Origin: a virus
Virus record (IMG/VR): IMGVR_UViG_3300025889_000733
Coordinates: 1-28,170 of that record
Reading direction: 5' to 3' (one strand)
DNA length: 28,170 nucleotides
Shown: positions 1,851 through 28,170 of the stretch, in pieces
How the letters are laid out: each line of letters opens with the position of its first letter
Numbering within the stretch: the stretch's first letter is position 1
Made by a program: the position numbers and the translations under genes
Notes under the pieces: model-generated
Told to the model about the DNA's origin: nothing
Database searches by the model: none
The model's input: the letters and a program-made list of their open reading frames with translations, nothing else

Positions 1851-2195
1851 ATGCCTACAGTAAAAGTACCTAGAGAGATCCAATTGCTAGCCCAGCGAGC
1901 AATCGATTATAATCTCTCTCTACCAATGAGTAAGAGAGCAGCCTACAAAGATGATAAAGGAAAGCGAGTACCCGGTACAGGTATGAGAACCGCTAGAAGG
2001 ATTGCCTCCGGTGAAGTTGATAAAGAGCAGCTCGAACTAATGGCAGCATGGTTCGCTAGGCATGCAGAAGCGGAAGGATCTGCCAAGGCTAGACAAGATA
2101 AAACGAGTAAAGCGGCTATCGCTTGGGCTCTCTGGGGAGGTACTCCGGGGAGAGCATGGGTTAAAAGAGCACTCCGATCTCTAGATAACAGATGA
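1851..2195 (+). CDS. Phage protein with ARRIASG...WFARH...IAWALWGG motifs, 114 aa
   Basis: One of only two rightward genes. It has AGGAGG five bases before the ATG, so the start is clear. The protein is basic and helical, with TGMRTARRIASGE (about residues 43-55), AAWFARH (64-70) and AIAWALWGGTPGRAW near the C-terminus. These elements match, in order, a small domain I recall in many phage proteins, alone or fused to head proteins, with the form ARA-LA-G, M-FARH, AW-LWGG-GRAW; its biochemical role is not established to my knowledge. The last codons run into the first ACAGAT iteron of the origin-like region. Position beside the origin would fit a role in replication or its control, but that is inference. 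Confidence 0.82.
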   Translation: MPTVKVPREIQLLAQRAIDYNLSLPMSKRAAYKDDKGKRVPGTGMRTARRIASGEVDKEQLELMAAWFARHAEAEGSAKARQDKTSKAAIAWALWGGTPGRAWVKRALRSLDNR

Positions 2196-2234
2196 TAACA
2201 GATAGAAAACAGATAGAATACAGATAGGTAAATC

Positions 2235-2290
2235 TGCTACTCTTTCGATACTTCGGGCTCGATATGCTACTTTGTGGGTACTTCGAGCCC
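2235..2290. repeat. Inner 26-bp direct repeat, period 30
   Basis: Positions 2235-2260 and 2265-2290 match at 20 of 26 bases, both beginning TGCTACT and both containing TACTTCG. A partial third copy (TGTTACTTTGGCTCGG) starts near 2369. Within the pair, GGGCTCGA (2255-2262) and TCGAGCCC (2283-2290) can form an 8-bp stem with a 20-base loop. These may be binding sites for an initiator distinct from the ACAGAT iterons. Confidence 0.55.
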
Positions 2291-2338
2291 CTTATATATA
2301 TATATAATATAAAAAGATAGATAAAATATATTCTCTAT
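2291..2338. other. AT-rich tract inside the origin-like region
   Basis: A run almost entirely of A and T, starting with alternating TATATATA and continuing through ATAATATAAAAAGATAGATAAAATATATT. It lies centrally between the inverted iteron arms. It stands out from the roughly 45% GC of the surroundings and would be the natural place for strand opening. Confidence 0.55.
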
Positions 2339-2410
2339 ACTACTCGATGCTCTTTTTTAGGGTGTTTCTGTTACTTTGGCTCGGTAGGTAGAGCACTATC
2401 GCAGATTAAC

Positions 2411-2449
2411 CTATCTGTTATTATCTGTTTTCTATCTGTTATTATCTGT
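2411..2449. repeat. Perfect 18-bp tandem repeat, period 21
   Basis: CTATCTGTTATTATCTGT occurs at 2411-2428 and again at 2432-2449. The 21-base period equals two helical turns, so a protein bound at each copy would sit on the same face of the DNA. The repeat contains four of the five right-arm iterons. Confidence 0.75.
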
Positions 2450-2550
2450 ATTTTTTGTTACTAATCTGTATTTTTGATTAGATTCGAAGCGATCTGGTTT
2501 ATTTTTCTTACTGGATCTCAAGTAATACTTGACTTCTGCAGGAAGATCTA

Positions 2551-2586
2551 AACAGAAAAAGAGCCCTAGGCATAACCCAGAGCTCT
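2551..2586 (-). terminator. Intrinsic terminator of the early operon
   Basis: Read leftward, an 11-bp stem with two G-U pairs (AGAGCTCTGGG and CCTAGGGCTCT) encloses the loop TTATG and is followed by TTTTT. It lies about 70 bases after the VirE-family gene stop. It marks the end of the leftward replication operon and shields the origin-like region from read-through. Confidence 0.85.
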
Positions 2587-2654
2587 CCAACCATTTACAA
2601 TTCACATAAACTAACCGAAAGAAGTATACACTCTTCGAGGCTAGTATACAAGGA

Positions 2655-3926
2655 TTATTTTCTAATCCATATCCGAACACCTTCTCTAATAACTTGCTTG
2701 TATCCCGATTCCTTACAGATCTGCGCTATTCTTCGAGCGTTCCCTACATGCTGCTGAGATACTGGAAGCTCTAAGAACTCCATCATCTGAGAAGTTGTAT
2801 TTTTTCCATGGATTACGATCGCCTCTCTTACTTTCATAGCCCAAGGGTCATCGATAATATAGGCTTCTTGTAGTTCTGATAAGGTTCTTTGACTCTCCCA
2901 TTCTAGATGCCAGATTGCTCCGTTATCGTATTCCTCTAAGGCTTCTGCAAAGATCTGCTCTCTATTTGCTTTGAGATACTCGAGATCTACTTGCTGAGTA
3001 ACTGTAATGGGCCATACTCTGCGCTCCGGACCATCAGATAAGAACTGATAATTATTCGAAGTCCCAGCGAACACTACTCTCCGGAGATAGGCTTTCGGGA
3101 ATTGCTGGTATGAGGGTCTGAACTTATCCTCTGCGGAAGATATGAAGGCCTTGAAGTTATCCGCAGTTCTACCCTGGAGAGAGTGAAGTTCTGCAAGTTC
3201 CCAGAGCCAAGTTTCTGTACTGTGTATAAGTTCGAGAGAATCCTTCTTAGAGATATCGAGAGGGGAATCAGAAAACCATTCATCTCCGATTAGAGCCTTA
3301 AGGCCTGTACTCTTGCCCAATCCTTTCTCTCCGCAGAGGACTAAGAAGGTATCCATCTTGCAACCCGGTTGCATAATACGAGCTACAAGAGAGATAACCC
3401 ACTTCTTACTCATCTCCATAATGATTGCTTCAGAGCCTTCGATTCGAGCAGCCTTAAATACAGTATGGAAGAGATGCCTAATACGAGGAGCCCCATCCCA
3501 CTTCGGAAGATTACGGAGCCAATTATGGATCGGTTCTTCTAAGTTCTGGTGGGCTACTCGGAGTACTGCTCGTTTGATATCTGCGCTTGGATACTTGATC
3601 CGATAGGCTCGTTCGATATGCAGACCAATCTCCTCGAGATCTGGATCCCAGAGTTCTCGATCCTTCCACTTCACCTTATTAGAGTGATCGTTATAGCAGA
3701 GGCTACGATATTCCGGATCGTTCTCCAAGATCTTTGCGATGTTACTGCGGTTAGCATAAGGCTTCGGAGGTGCTACAAAGTTTCCTTCCTTATCGTACTT
3801 CGCATCTTTTTTCTCTAATAGATCCCAAGTATCAATATCTGCACCTTCTGGAGCATGCTTGTATTCTGCATCTATACCCATATCTTTAGCAAGGGCTCGT
3901 AGTATCTTCATCTGTTCCTGGTTCAT
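2655..3926 (-). CDS. VirE/VapE-family replication helicase-ATPase
   Basis: A 423-residue protein of the virulence-associated E family, which in phages and mobile elements acts as a replicative, SF3-like helicase. Walker A is GEKGLGKST at 199-207. The Walker B-like TETWLWELAEL is at about 237-247, the sensor-like stretch RRVVFAGTSN at 282-291, and an arginine-finger candidate ERRVWPI at 301-307. The region NWLRNLPKWDGAPRI (about 135-149) is characteristic of this family. It follows an AEP-type primase in the same operon, giving the primase-helicase pair typical of small replicons, and its gene ends beside the origin-like region. It overlaps the upstream HTH gene by four bases (ATGA). Confidence 0.92.
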   Translation of the reverse strand: MNQEQMKILRALAKDMGIDAEYKHAPEGADIDTWDLLEKKDAKYDKEGNFVAPPKPYANRSNIAKILENDPEYRSLCYNDHSNKVKWKDRELWDPDLEEIGLHIERAYRIKYPSADIKRAVLRVAHQNLEEPIHNWLRNLPKWDGAPRIRHLFHTVFKAARIEGSEAIIMEMSKKWVISLVARIMQPGCKMDTFLVLCGEKGLGKSTGLKALIGDEWFSDSPLDISKKDSLELIHSTETWLWELAELHSLQGRTADNFKAFISSAEDKFRPSYQQFPKAYLRRVVFAGTSNNYQFLSDGPERRVWPITVTQQVDLEYLKANREQIFAEALEEYDNGAIWHLEWESQRTLSELQEAYIIDDPWAMKVREAIVIHGKNTTSQMMEFLELPVSQQHVGNARRIAQICKESGYKQVIREGVRIWIRK

Positions 3927-4189
3927 TGTTTCTCCATTCGTTCTACTGCGTAACGATAATCTCTGCTGCTGGCCTTGATTGCTTCTAATATCAGTGCATC
4001 GAAGTAGGCTCGATCTCCTTGCTTTAGCTCTGTCAGTACTTCGCAGATTAACACAAGATTAGATAATCTTGGCATAAACTTCTTTGAAGTGTTTAAAGAT
4101 GAGTAACTTAGGCCTGTAGTGTTACAGAGCTCCGTTCTCGTGATTTCCAGATCTTCGATCTGCTTCTGGACCCATAGATTAAAATACAT
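3923..4189 (-). CDS. Small XRE-like helix-turn-helix protein, 88 aa
   Basis: A longer in-frame ORF begins at 4282, but the start at 4189 is chosen because GGAGGTACA lies directly before that ATG and the longer form would run 65 bases into the upstream gene. The protein opens MYFNLWVQKQ, very like the opening MNFGLWVQME of the protein at 25542-25775. The HTH is near residues 17-35 (TRTELCNTTGLSYSSLN), followed by MPRLSNLVLICEVL, the Pro-Leu-Cys helix shared by the five paralogues. The turn residues are less canonical than in the others. It probably regulates the operon; its target is unknown. Confidence 0.78.
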   Translation of the reverse strand: MYFNLWVQKQIEDLEITRTELCNTTGLSYSSLNTSKKFMPRLSNLVLICEVLTELKQGDRAYFDALILEAIKASSRDYRYAVERMEKQ

Positions 4190-4217
4190 TGTACCTCCGT
4201 ATTTTTTTGTTATTGGG

Positions 4218-4538
4218 TTATTTGGTTTTCTTGTTCTTCTTTTTGTTGGCTCGATATCGAAGCCTTCTGTAAGTAAATTCATACTCTGGCATCTTCTGGC
4301 ATCCTCTTTGGATAATCTTCCAAAGTTCCTCCGGGCTATCTGAGAACAGTTCGCAGAGGGCTAGATAGGTATCGAGTTTCGGATACCGTAGTCCAGTCAT
4401 ATATCCCTTAAGGGTAGCTTCTGATATTCCGATCTTATCTGCTAAGTGTACTAACTTCCAATCCTTCCTAGCAGCCTCGCGGAATATCCACATCCCGAAA
4501 TCAGTACAGCCCTTAGGGATTACTTCGTTCTGGCTCAT
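4218..4538 (-). CDS. Small XRE-type helix-turn-helix regulator, 106 aa
   Basis: The start at 4538 is preferred over an in-frame ATG at 4571 because GGAGGATC precedes it and it forms an ATGA overlap with the primase stop. The HTH is at about residues 29-47 (LVHLADKIGISEATLKGYM), followed by TGLRYPKLDTYLALCELF, which aligns with the other four paralogues. The C-terminus is very basic (RANKKKNKKTK). It lies between primase and helicase genes, an unusual place for a regulator, and a role in initiator or origin binding is possible but unproven. Confidence 0.85.
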   Translation of the reverse strand: MSQNEVIPKGCTDFGMWIFREAARKDWKLVHLADKIGISEATLKGYMTGLRYPKLDTYLALCELFSDSPEELWKIIQRGCQKMPEYEFTYRRLRYRANKKKNKKTK

Positions 4539-5377
4539 ATTAGATCCTCCAATCTTCCCCACCATTGGCACTTATTTGCTCGGTTACAGTGTGGCCATAA
4601 GACCGCATGAGGGAGAGAGGGATCGATGGAAAAGTATACCTCTCTCTTACCGCATTGAGGGCAGAGGATATCTCGGGCTACGTTACCATTTATACTGGCT
4701 CCGACCTTCGATGCTATACCCATTCTAAATTCTGGATTATGGAATAGAGCCTCGATGCCTACTTTGGATCCTGGCTTTCTGCTTACCCATCTATGATACC
4801 GAGGCTTCTTTTCTTCCTTCGGTATATGGGAGTAATCCAATCGAAGGAACCCGGAGCCCTTATGGGCTTTCGCTGCTTGGAGATGGTTATCTCCCCTTGC
4901 TGGAGTAGCGAACCGGTAGTACATACGAGCGCAATCGGTAAGAGCACTAGAATCGGGCTCCCCTTCCCCTACTACTTTATCCCATAGTTCCTTAGCGGCT
5001 TGAGAGGCTCGCTTCCAATCGGTAGCGATTACAGGCTCCTCCAGAGGTAGGATTATTCTCCACTTATGCACCTCTTCAGAGTGGGAGAAAGAAGTATGGG
5101 CTATGTAGTGGTATTCATCCCAGCCCAATCTCCAGCCCCAGTCCGTACCATCATCGAGATCGAATACTAAGCAGGAGATCTCGATAGCATTGGCTCCGCT
5201 TCGATTACCAGCAAAGATAGTAGGGCTCCAGAGTGGGAGGCTCTTCTTTTCTCGTACTGGAAAGGGCTTCGAGGGCATCATAAGAGCCTTGGCAAGATTA
5301 CGAAGGGATACCTCTACCTGCTGGGGCTCTCTTACATAGTGACTATCGAAGAGAGATATCTTATACTTCGGTTCCAT
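4535..5377 (-). CDS. AEP-type DNA primase with C-terminal zinc ribbon
   Basis: Predicted to make primers for phage DNA replication. An in-frame ATG at 5476 exists, but 5377 is preferred because GGAG lies eight bases upstream and most of the extra sequence lies inside the RusA gene. In the 280-residue protein, LVFDLDDG (about 70-77) carries the metal-binding acidic pair of archaeo-eukaryotic primases. HTSFSH (94-99) and HKWRIILPL (104-112) follow, then ARMYYRFATP (150-159). These match prim-pol-like proteins of plasmids and phages. The C-terminal CPQC (239-242) with HC (263-264) and C270 forms a likely zinc ribbon. Its operon partner is the VirE-family helicase. Confidence 0.82.
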   Translation of the reverse strand: MEPKYKISLFDSHYVREPQQVEVSLRNLAKALMMPSKPFPVREKKSLPLWSPTIFAGNRSGANAIEISCLVFDLDDGTDWGWRLGWDEYHYIAHTSFSHSEEVHKWRIILPLEEPVIATDWKRASQAAKELWDKVVGEGEPDSSALTDCARMYYRFATPARGDNHLQAAKAHKGSGFLRLDYSHIPKEEKKPRYHRWVSRKPGSKVGIEALFHNPEFRMGIASKVGASINGNVARDILCPQCGKREVYFSIDPSLPHAVLWPHCNRANKCQWWGRLEDLI

Positions 5378-5813
5378 CTTCACTGCTCCAAGTATAGATA
5401 GAAAAGAGTGTATGGGCTTCCTCATTAGCTCCGCAGTACATATCCTCACAGGAAAGAGAGACCACTCGGTTATCATCTATCCAGATATCCGATTGAGTAA
5501 TGCAATCGAGCACCATCTTAAGCAGATTATCGATATCGGGCTTCTTTGGCCTCCAGATTCTACCTGCAGTGATCTCTCCACGATTGAGATATAATCTCTT
5601 AGTCCGAGGATGGAGAAAGGAAATCGTAACCTTGAATATTCCATCGAGGGGAATCCAATCCTCTCCGCAGGAGGCTCGAAGGTTCTTTACTGCCTCATCC
5701 TTGTAAGTTCTAGAACTCTTCGGAGTATAGGCTCTTCCTGTTTTAGTAATCCGAGGTCTCCCCATAGCTACTGGGGGACCTTGGATAATACCTTGATATG
5801 CTAGTTTCCACAT
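5361..5813 (-). CDS. rusA: RusA-like Holliday junction resolvase
   Basis: Cleaves four-way junctions from replication or recombination, clearing branched DNA before packaging. The start at 5813 (150 residues) is chosen because it overlaps the upstream stop as TAATG with GGAG nine bases before it; a longer frame begins at 5867. The family signature KPDIDNLLKMVLD (91-103) and WIDDNRVV (111-118) supply the acidic catalytic residues. The N-terminal GPPVAMGRPR fits the strand opening the RusA fold. Length is typical (about 120-150 residues). Confidence 0.93.
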   Translation of the reverse strand: MWKLAYQGIIQGPPVAMGRPRITKTGRAYTPKSSRTYKDEAVKNLRASCGEDWIPLDGIFKVTISFLHPRTKRLYLNRGEITAGRIWRPKKPDIDNLLKMVLDCITQSDIWIDDNRVVSLSCEDMYCGANEEAHTLFSIYTWSSEDGTEV

Positions 5814-6319
5814 TAGATGCGCTCCATCTCTACTACTTTCGAGAGTGTAAGATAGTGTTCTTCCCACTTAGTAGGGTATAACATCTTACATAATCTAAGG
5901 AGGCTTGGTACTGTTGGATGGGTATCTCCCGAAATCCACTTAGAGATCCCATTCTTAGAAATACCGATAGCATCTGCAATATCTTCGATAGTGAACTCAC
6001 TATTAGCAATAGCAGCCTGCATCATAGTAGCGAACCTAGGATTAGAGATGGCCTTAAACTTCTCTTGACTCCATCGAACTGCTACAAGAGGATCTGGCTC
6101 GCAGAACTCTTTACGAATAATAAGTCCGTTCACTTGGCAGGAGGCTTCCCATACCCAAGTACAGTAAGTAGGGCTCCAGACCTTGCAGAGCTCTCCGATC
6201 TGCTTTACGTAATCCAATTGATCTAATACGATAGGCTTCGGAGGGGTTCGCTTATTGCTCATCTCTCGAAGTTTGTTTCTTCCGTTCTCTTTGATATAGT
6301 TTCTTCTGCGCTTATTCAT
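5813..6319 (-). CDS. XRE-type helix-turn-helix protein with N-terminal extension, 168 aa
   Basis: The start at 6319 follows GGGGGTG seven bases upstream and lies one base after the stop of the 35-aa membrane peptide. An in-frame TTG at 6359 is less likely. The N-terminus is basic (MNKRRRNYIKENGRNK). A central region rich in Trp and Cys (about 45-75) is unassigned. The HTH lies at about 109-128 (FTIEDIADAIGISKNGISKW), followed by SGDTHPTVPSLLRLCKML, the shared paralogue element. It is the largest and most canonical of the five HTH proteins and a candidate main regulator acting on the palindrome upstream of the operon; that link is inference. Confidence 0.85.
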   Translation of the reverse strand: MNKRRRNYIKENGRNKLREMSNKRTPPKPIVLDQLDYVKQIGELCKVWSPTYCTWVWEASCQVNGLIIRKEFCEPDPLVAVRWSQEKFKAISNPRFATMMQAAIANSEFTIEDIADAIGISKNGISKWISGDTHPTVPSLLRLCKMLYPTKWEEHYLTLSKVVEMERI

Positions 6320-6320
6320 C

Positions 6321-6428
6321 TTACACCCCCAATAACCAAACGAGGAAAGCATATGCAAGAGGGAAAGAGCAGAACACCGCAGCGAAAAGAAGATGGCAGC
6401 AGATAGTATGGGTTATAGATTGTTTCAT
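6321..6428 (-). CDS. 35-residue membrane peptide
   Basis: A short gene with AGAGGTACAAACA directly before its ATG, using the same AGAGGTAC leader as several neighbours. The product begins MKQSITHTICCHLLFAAVF and is almost wholly hydrophobic after residue 8, ending AYAFLVWLLGV, so it should span the inner membrane once or twice. The stop is one base from the next ATG, as expected for coupled translation. Small early membrane peptides in phages often alter host envelope functions or exclude other phages; no specific role can be assigned. Confidence 0.65.
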   Translation of the reverse strand: MKQSITHTICCHLLFAAVFCSFPLAYAFLVWLLGV

Positions 6429-26255: not shown

Positions 26256-26905
26256 TTCTTCACCTTTGGCATCGGGATAATGTTATCGATCTGGCTAATC
26301 GTTCCTTCCAATCTCTGTCTAAGGATTGGAGGGAGAGATACAATAGCAGAAGTAATCTCCGTTAGAAGTTGCTCATCGGTTAATCCTTCGAGTTCATCCC
26401 CCATACCTTCCTCGGCTTCGATCTGTCTTATCTGCTGCACTATTTGGAGGAGTTGCCTCTGGAGGGCTGCATAGGCTTGCCAAGATTGGCTCGATTCTGC
26501 TTTGGCCATACTAGATCGAAGTTCTAAAGCCTGGGTTCTTAATAGATCTAGCATACTAGATGGGAGTTTAACTTCTTTCTGTTGCTGCTGGGCTTGATAT
26601 CCATCTCTAGTATAACCATGCCTTCTTTCTAGCCTCCAGGCAGCAGCCTTCCAATCTCCAGCCCTCGCAGCAGTTTCTATCATAGCAAGATTAGCGATTG
26701 CTCCTTTAGCTTCTGCTGCTTTTATAGTGTCCAGAAACGTTCTGTATTGACCTCTATCTTGATCTTTACCCTTCTCCATCCAATTGTAGAGAGTAGAGCG
26801 AGATATACCCGCATACTCCGCAGCGAGCTCATAAGTAGCCCCCAAGCGGAGAGCCTCCATTATTCGATCTGTTACTGCATCAATAAACTTAGATTTCCTA
26901 GCCAT
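26252..26905 (-). CDS. terS: Terminase small subunit
   Basis: Recognises phage DNA and loads it onto the motor. The start at 26905 (217 residues) is supported by GGAGGG upstream and a TAATG overlap with the methyltransferase stop; a longer frame reaches 26962. The N-terminal homeodomain-like HTH lies at about 20-45 (GATYELAAEYAGISRSTLYNWMEKG). Next is a segment (IKAAEAKGAIANLAMIETAARAGDWKAAAWRLERRHGY) that is highly typical of phage small terminases, then a Gln-rich helix for oligomerisation and an acidic region. It lies near the genome end. Confidence 0.88.
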   Translation of the reverse strand: MARKSKFIDAVTDRIMEALRLGATYELAAEYAGISRSTLYNWMEKGKDQDRGQYRTFLDTIKAAEAKGAIANLAMIETAARAGDWKAAAWRLERRHGYTRDGYQAQQQQKEVKLPSSMLDLLRTQALELRSSMAKAESSQSWQAYAALQRQLLQIVQQIRQIEAEEGMGDELEGLTDEQLLTEITSAIVSLPPILRQRLEGTISQIDNIIPMPKVKK

Positions 26906-28107
26906 TATTCGAGCCCTCCGGTGCCTACTTCTAATCCGTTCTCTGTTGCATATCTTGTCCACCTTCTTCGGATTACATCACAATATTTTGGATCAAGTTC
27001 AATTAAGCGGCATATTCGATTGCTTGCGGCACATCCCAAAAGTGTACTGCCAGAACCACCATAAAAATCAATAACAATATCTTTTTCTTTACCATATTGT
27101 TCGAACATCCAGTTTATTAATTTTATTGGTTTTTGTGTTGGGTGATGCCTTTTGTGATCAAATTCTTGTTCAGTTCCTAAAATACCACTCCAAGTGATTC
27201 TTGAAATACATCTGTGATGCTTTTTTTTTGACCAACACAATTCAAATTCAGAAAATGTTAGTTTCATGTTTTCTACACCGAATCTTTTATCCCAAACAAA
27301 CCAAGAACCTTTTTTTCTGTTAGGTATTAACTCAGCAAAATAATCTGCTCCCCAAATAAAAATTTCTTCGACATTCGGAAATATTGCAAATATTGATGTG
27401 ATTAACGAATCTTTAAAATCTTCGTTGTCTCCAATTACTGGTGTATAATTTTTTGCTTTGTGTATCCATGTACCTTTTCCGCCTTTTCGATTACTAATTT
27501 CTACGTTTAGATTCATACCATATGGTGGATCGGTTAAAATCATATTTACTTTCTCATCACCGAGTAACTTTTCCCAATTCTCTTTTAGTGTTGAATCTCC
27601 GCAGAGTAATCTATGCGGTCCCAGTTCGTAGATCTCTCCCTCTTTGGAATAAACCTCTTCTTCTAGTTCTGGGAGATCTTCATTCTCTTCCTTCGTATCT
27701 GTATCCGATATCTTATCGATAATATCTTGGAGTTCATTATCATCAAACCCAATCCCGGTTAGATCTTCTCCTGCTAGATCCTGTAGTACCTGCTCGAGTA
27801 GATCTTCATCCCAATCTGCTCTCTCATTAAGTTTATTATCTGCGATCGCTAAGAGTTGAGAATCCACTACATCAAGATCCATAAAGCGTACTGGAACCTC
27901 TTTTAAGCCTATCTCTTTAGCTGCTTTCCAGCGTGTATGACCTGCGATAATCACATTATCAGATTTACGAGCGATGATTGGAGAAGAGAATCCGAACCGC
28001 TCTATACTCTGTCTTACCTCGCTAACTGCGTGGTCATTCTTCCGAGGATTCTTATCCCAAGGCTTCAGTTGGTTTATATCAATATATTCTGCTGCTATTT
28101 TACTCAT
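26905..28107 (-). CDS. ParB-like domain fused to DNA methyltransferase
   Basis: A 400-residue fusion common in phages. Residues 1-95 form a ParB/sulfiredoxin-like domain with VIIAGHTRWKAAKEIG (52-67), the G-H-T-R motif. An acidic linker (about 134-156) leads to a beta-class methyltransferase with DPPY (193-196), HPTQKP (322-327) and the SAM loop DFYGGSGST (347-355). It modifies phage DNA, target unknown. Codon choice and base composition change sharply inside the gene: about 26990-27595 is AT-rich, unlike both flanks, pointing to acquisition of the catalytic core by recombination. It is the first leftward gene from the right end, with AGGAG before its start. Confidence 0.92.
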   Translation of the reverse strand: MSKIAAEYIDINQLKPWDKNPRKNDHAVSEVRQSIERFGFSSPIIARKSDNVIIAGHTRWKAAKEIGLKEVPVRFMDLDVVDSQLLAIADNKLNERADWDEDLLEQVLQDLAGEDLTGIGFDDNELQDIIDKISDTDTKEENEDLPELEEEVYSKEGEIYELGPHRLLCGDSTLKENWEKLLGDEKVNMILTDPPYGMNLNVEISNRKGGKGTWIHKAKNYTPVIGDNEDFKDSLITSIFAIFPNVEEIFIWGADYFAELIPNRKKGSWFVWDKRFGVENMKLTFSEFELCWSKKKHHRCISRITWSGILGTEQEFDHKRHHPTQKPIKLINWMFEQYGKEKDIVIDFYGGSGSTLLGCAASNRICRLIELDPKYCDVIRRRWTRYATENGLEVGTGGLE

Positions 28108-28160: not shown

Positions 28161-28170
28161 GTGAGTGAAG
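28161..28170. repeat. Terminal direct repeat, right copy
   Basis: GTGAGTGAAG, identical to positions 1-10. See the left copy for interpretation as genome end, cohesive end or circular junction. Confidence 0.6.

Follow-up and report, generated by a model that had tools for sequence, protein, structure and literature searches.

We analyzed the virus record IMGVR_UViG_3300025889_000733, the genome of a small marine bacterial virus, over its full 28,170 bp (hereafter, the window), with a focus on a repeat-rich locus at 2188-2468. It separates the 3' ends of two genes that converge on it, one encoding a 114-residue protein (1851-2195, plus strand) and the other a VapE-type helicase (2655-3926, minus strand). 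VapE closes a minus-strand replication operon that contains, in order, a helix-turn-helix (HTH) protein, a RusA resolvase, a primase-like protein, two further HTH proteins, and the helicase itself. An earlier reading of the letters alone (the original prediction) had proposed that opposed iteron arrays around an AT-rich core form a replication origin where this operon ends. Our analysis supports that proposal and points to VapE as the probable reader of the iterons. Feature coordinates are collected in Table 1.

The locus contains 11 CAGAT/ATCTG units rather than the nine counted before, with CAGAT starting at 2189, 2199, 2210, 2221, and 2402, and ATCTG at 2232, 2413, 2423, 2434, 2444, and 2464. 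Each arm has four units in the same orientation, spaced 10-11 bp apart, plus one reversed inner unit, and the right arm has an additional outer unit 20 bp further out. The arms (2188-2237 and 2401-2449/50) form an inverted repeat whose halves are 163 nt apart, which agrees with the two opposed arrays and the imperfect ~50-base arms about 160 bases apart described originally. ACAGAT occurs nine times in 281 bp, compared with a maximum of seven for any 6-mer when the whole window was dinucleotide-shuffled 60 times, and CAGAT occurs 11 times versus a maximum of eight across 300 shuffles. There are no clusters of the CAGAT word elsewhere in the window. The stop codon of the 114-residue protein gene falls within the first unit, as previously noted, and the right arm lies ~205 nt past the VapE stop, which places it 3' of rep, the initiator helicase gene.

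The region between the arms holds the features reported for it, namely a 30-bp-period direct repeat, an 8-bp inverted repeat (GGGCTCGA/TCGAGCCC at 2255-2262 / 2283-2290), and a TATATATA tract in the core region. The 8-bp inverted repeat is kept in only part of the related group, and across the wider group, TATAATATAA is the core segment that is best conserved. An intrinsic terminator was also said to protect one side of the locus. A hairpin does follow the VapE gene (2588-2558, minus strand), although shuffled sequence yields a similar number of hairpins in simple terminator scans. An RNA stem formed by the two arms was judged unlikely, by eye rather than by computation, because the unit words are common to both arms and the bases between units often are not.

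To characterize relatives, we used the terminase, the 114-residue protein, and VapE as probes and collected approximately 70 loci with VapE. Scoring was applied to the 58 loci that had both flanking genes and a VapE identity of at least 36%, with the array score defined as the best inverted repeat in the stretch from VapE to the 114-residue protein gene with an arm separation of 110-330 nt. Mirrored arrays were present in 58 of 58 loci (scores 18-48, median 29), compared with scores of 9-15 for dinucleotide shuffles and 8-15 for upstream genic stretches of equal length, but these are not 58 independent cases because many loci are near copies of one another. Spacing between units was mostly 10 or 11 bp (190 and 88 cases, respectively), and nearly all relatives had an AT-rich core (lowest 60-nt spacer G+C ≤ 0.25). 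Conserved arms around a variable core had been anticipated among relatives, and the reverse was found: L003 and L004 are ~90-92% identical to the window nearby, and the core is the best-kept stretch, with a 112-nt run invariant in all three.

The array shifts as a block and is separable from both neighboring genes. An additional gene sits between the 114-residue protein gene and the array in L118. An apparent C5 methylase gene lies between the array and VapE in G007, G010, G006, and G023, and another inserted gene, apparently an exonuclease, occurs in G016, G036, G023, and G027, both having been identified by eye rather than by profile. In some relatives with an intervening gene, the distance between the array and VapE reaches about 1-1.7 kb. 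Mirrored repeats of other words (TGGACCACT; CTGAGCAACCT) directly follow a distant VapE (33% identity) in L268, at the VapE 3' end, and in L270. A divergent member, L254, has an upstream 61-nt imperfect inverted repeat that is not of the unit type (2287-2347 / 2659-2719).

The unit word varies by lineage and is identical in both arms of one genome, with CAGAT, CACTA, CACGT/CACCA, CACAT, and mixtures observed. Since the word of both arms changes jointly between lineages, the protein reading the units must have changed too. Perfect DnaA boxes (TTATCCACA) numbered 54 in 82 kb downstream of VapE, on the side of the 114-residue protein gene, versus 10 in 446 kb upstream, both totals being inflated by near-copy loci. 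In several lineages they are clustered in the interval from VapE to the array, for example eight in ~180 bp in G011 (L092 1720-1904), and clusters also occur in L195, L201, L224, L230, L232, L238, and L244. Their position next to the array supports the origin reading for the group, and it suggests additional use of host DnaA by some members. The clusters are limited to some lineages, as though dependence on host DnaA came and went. With the architecture kept in every scored locus and DnaA clusters in several lineages, we estimate from sequence a probability of about 90% that the array locus is the replication origin.

The window's VapE is, by domain and structural match, a VapE-type self-loading helicase. 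In its AlphaFold2 model (mean pLDDT 84.7), the C terminus folds as a winged helix made of helices 363-371, 378-384, and 394-406 and strands 409-414 and 417-422, and residue 398 lies close to the beginning of the third (recognition) helix. The closest solved structure is 7pds, PriRep1 with double-stranded DNA (sequence E 7e-53, Foldseek 6e-23, VIA-align Z 29.5 over residues 31-423). That alignment extends to the last VapE residue, and its root-mean-square deviation of 8.8 from the model implies that the domains are placed differently. The SaPI5 primase-helicase 7ola came next (Z 11.8). A literature search found no paper naming PriRep1.

Which protein reads the units was approached by following residues across lineages. 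A first column scan covered VapE, the HTH protein 5813-6358, the primase, RusA, and the 114-residue protein, and position 398 of VapE was the sole position with fixed, identical changes in two clades. Under a looser rule the HTH protein and the primase each contributed one more column. An extended scan of VapE comprised 58 distinct proteins, 43 of which have a CAGAT, CACTA, or CACGT word; among loci of these three classes, column 398 was the only disjoint VapE column, with arginine in 25 of 25 CAGAT origins and lysine in 18 of 18 CACTA/CACGT origins. The primase had no disjoint column in the extended scan. A tree built without the C-terminal domain gave three independent contrasts between R398 and K398, all of which agreed with the word. 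Because there are only three independent contrasts, this link is a strong lead and not proof.

The original prediction had named three possible binders, and among these the VirE/VapE-family protein is favored: VapE is the best-supported candidate and, on these comparisons, probably the iteron reader. The 114-residue protein (1851-2195) makes a weak candidate for the binder that sets the word, as none of its residues follows the word and another gene can separate it from the array (L118). For the HTH proteins 3923-4282 and 4218-4571, no homologue was detected near VapE in several array-bearing members, where the gene may have been missed or replaced. Whether the single recognition-helix position 398 (arginine or lysine) sets or mainly determines the word is more doubtful, and we offer it tentatively. 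The same caution applies to the possibility of repeated switches of origin specificity within the group, in which all units would have changed together with residue 398 from ACAGATA to ACACTAG in one clade and to ACACGTA in another. A direct contact, in which R398 reads the G of CAGAT, is contradicted by L248, whose word is CACAT and whose residue is arginine. L261 combines K398 with a weak non-CAGAT array.

Several results weigh against an origin read by VapE. The inflection in GC skew predicted at the locus was not seen, as cumulative skew falls steadily along the window. The window has no perfect DnaA box, and two Bacteroides VapE phages have no clear array in the gap 3' of VapE. A sign test on the three contrasts yields p = 0.25, which is the lowest value attainable and cannot reach 0.05. 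The pattern at residue 398 comes from loci classed as CAGAT, CACTA, or CACGT; outside these classes, L248 and the mixed CACTT/CAGGT/CAGAT loci L260 and L262 keep arginine and the mixed locus L263 has lysine. Finally, the extended scan also yielded a single disjoint column for the HTH protein 5813-6358, although that column is a scattered one, with four residues on each side.

This last protein could itself read the iterons and recruit VapE, in which case the locus would still be an origin and the VapE winged helix would have another role. It is present in all relatives covering its stretch and evolves faster than VapE, with 44% identity in the sister pair G032/G029, which have different words, as opposed to 76% for VapE. 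However, its divergence between words is not clearly above the general pace of clade I (63-68% within CAGAT, 55-63% between), and the initiators described for Staphylococcus aureus pathogenicity islands (SaPIs) and staphylococcal cassette chromosomes (SCCs) bind via the helicase's own C-terminal domain (PMC7581432). We regard an HTH reader as unlikely.

Two other explanations would deny the locus its role as an origin. Regulators and ParB-type proteins also use phased arrays of sites, and this phage encodes several HTH proteins and a fusion of ParB_N with a methylase, such that the locus might be an operator, enhancer, or partition site. A regulatory array is disfavored because no promoter of either gene is expected between convergent 3' ends. 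Moreover, CAGAT clusters are confined to this one place in the window, DnaA-box clusters adjoin the array in relatives, and the array is linked to a helicase of the self-loading type, all of which make a regulatory or partition site very improbable. Still less probable is a phage attachment site (attP). In attP, arm-type sites flank a core, and the repeats on both arms of the core and the inverted repeat resemble such layouts. Yet tyrosine (PF00589) and serine (PF00239) recombinases were found in 0 of 16 records, mostly near full length, in searches that did detect their controls; other recombinase types were not sought. The length of the arms (as many as 11 units), the AT-rich core, and the DnaA clusters also suit attP poorly.

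The explanation we propose in full, and consider likely, is that the locus is an origin of the type used by phage-inducible chromosomal islands (PICIs), carried by a complete tailed phage and read by VapE. The VapE C-terminal winged helix would read each 10-11-bp unit (ACAGATA in the window), and helical phasing of the units would collect protomers along a single face of either arm. Given the opposed orientation of the arms, we propose that two oppositely oriented helicase rings assemble and flank the AT-rich core. Melting of the core would then give each ring one strand, and the primase from the VapE operon together with the host polymerase would begin bidirectional synthesis. In some relatives, DnaA boxes next to the array may add to this scheme.

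Table 1. Features of the probable origin locus and its gene neighborhood (window coordinates).
Feature	Positions	Strand	Evidence
Left iteron arm: CAGAT 2189, 2199, 2210, 2221 and inner inverted ATCTG 2232	2188-2237	+	Clustering beyond shuffles
Right iteron arm (mirrors the left one): reversed inner unit CAGAT 2402 followed by ATCTG 2413, 2423, 2434, 2444	2401-2449	-	~50-nt inverted repeat; arms 84-90% alike in close relatives
Outer extra unit of right arm, within a 20-bp segment absent from L003 and L004	2464-2468	-	Sequence comparison
AT-rich core (TTATATATATATATAATATAAA...), probable melting site	2292-2332	.	Lowest 60-nt G+C of spacer 0.17
112 nt unchanged across window, L003, and L004	2275-2386	.	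Longest in ~3.4 kb aligned across all three
Two 30-bp direct repeats with TACTTYG motifs	2232-2291	+	Copies 2232-2261 / 2262-2291, 73%; retained in part of group only
Terminator-like hairpin between VapE gene and array	2558-2588	-	Similar hairpins seen 3' of VapE in relatives
VapE C-terminal winged helix (residues ~363-423), proposed iteron reader; R398 codon 2733-2735	2655-2840	-	AlphaFold2 model and column scan
VapE-type superfamily 3 (SF3)/AAA+ helicase, 423 residues, proposed self-loading initiator	2655-3926	-	PF05272 E 4e-60; 7pds E 7e-53, Z 29.5
Primase-like protein, same operon as VapE	4535-5476	-	Weak PHROG primase match; present in all relatives covering stretch
RusA-type Holliday junction resolvase	5361-5867	-	PF05866 E 6e-22
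HTH protein, first gene of operon, rival iteron binder	5813-6358	-	PF01381
114-residue protein gene, convergent with VapE; stop overlaps first unit	1851-2195	+	In 11 near-complete relatives

Beyond the origin, a 10-bp repeat, GTGAGTGAAG, is present at both window ends (1-10 and 28161-28170), and the 27,069-bp contig L004 spans from window end to window start with one copy of this repeat (L004 5859-5923). Since L004 crosses the junction, the genome is circular or circularly permuted, and a 10-nt cohesive end is possible. Part of VapE (window 2786-2885) is duplicated in the 4.2-kb contig L003, whose end (4152-4248) is a diverged second copy fused to window position 10; this may reflect a chimera, a deleted genome, or an assembly artefact. 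Several small HTH-like proteins are encoded in this one 28-kb genome (1008-1250, 3923-4282, 4218-4571, 5813-6358, and 25542-25820), and G011, G005, and G006 have two tandem relatives of the 3923-4282 protein ahead of VapE. The ParB_N domain at 26905-28107 is fused to an N6/N4 DNA methylase, and the corresponding stretch (window 26866-28104) is cleanly missing from L004. The 114-residue protein is kept next to the origin in near-complete members, and its AWALWGG motif occurs in at least 575 viral loci, mostly at lower identity.

Neither megablast of the window against 50,697 phage records nor tblastn of its terminase against phage records returned a match, and VapE homologues in phage records all had less than 60% identity. 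Searches of the window found no Rfam RNA family and no tRNA gene. A near terminase was found only in a 14.7-kb contig of a metagenome-assembled genome labelled Rhodospirillaceae, which is too weak for a host call.

Among known systems, the closest solved protein by sequence and fold, C-terminal part included, is PriRep1 ('Similar to D. nodosus vapE'), which is ~23-27% identical to the window's VapE and comes from a different, staphylococcal, element. The O protein of lambda is not a helicase. Lambdoid origins likewise place phage iterons beside an AT-rich tract, but as a one-sided row of 4-6 O protein iterons within the O gene (PMC7466680). As described in PMC7581432, SCCmec Cch2 binds short direct repeats just 3' of its own gene via its C-terminal domain, as proposed here for VapE, whereas Cch2 is a D5-type helicase with only three iterons in a single cluster. 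The same source, citing Ubeda et al. 2007, states that SaPI Rep binds iterons immediately 3' of its own gene via its C-terminal domain, apparently as two hexamers. Origins of PICIs, which comprise Gram-positive and Gram-negative islands, have an AT-rich region flanked by two iteron sets, and a rep-ori replicon was shown to be functional (PMC6092414). The locus was rightly called more elaborate than a simple iteron row, but its design was already known from PICIs (PMC6092414).

The window's probable origin shares with those of PICIs and SaPIs two iteron sets around an AT-rich region 3' of rep, although whether the PICI sets are mirrored does not emerge from the text of PMC6092414. PICI-type origins have primase and rep grouped in one module on the upstream side. 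In the window, a primase-like gene with a weak primase match precedes VapE, as it does in relatives covering the stretch. In contrast to those islands, the carrier here is a complete tailed phage, and we classify it as a phage rather than a PICI because terminase and major head protein genes are present and no integrase was detected. Several relatives also differ in that an apparent C5 methylase gene, an apparent exonuclease gene, or a DnaA-box cluster separates the array from its neighbors, and the unit word varies among close relatives. Five cultured VapE phages that we inspected all have a 220-330-bp gap 3' of VapE, which contains repeats in three: GGATAC 12 times in Enterococcus phiFL4A, TGTCAA eight times in Listeria LWP01, and GGTCAC eight times in Marinobacter PS3.

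Together with the marine group of complete phages, these three cultured phages suggest that satellite and phage replicons belong to one widespread system. The natural set of words among near-identical helicases provides a ready experiment on how self-loading helicases recognize origins, and it bears on why origin words differ among close relatives. If the switch between R398 and K398 is real, closely related phages would carry mutually incompatible origins. Relative to the systems above, this kind of origin is known or nearly so; what is new here is its mirrored, helically phased form and a naturally occurring range of words linked to a single residue.
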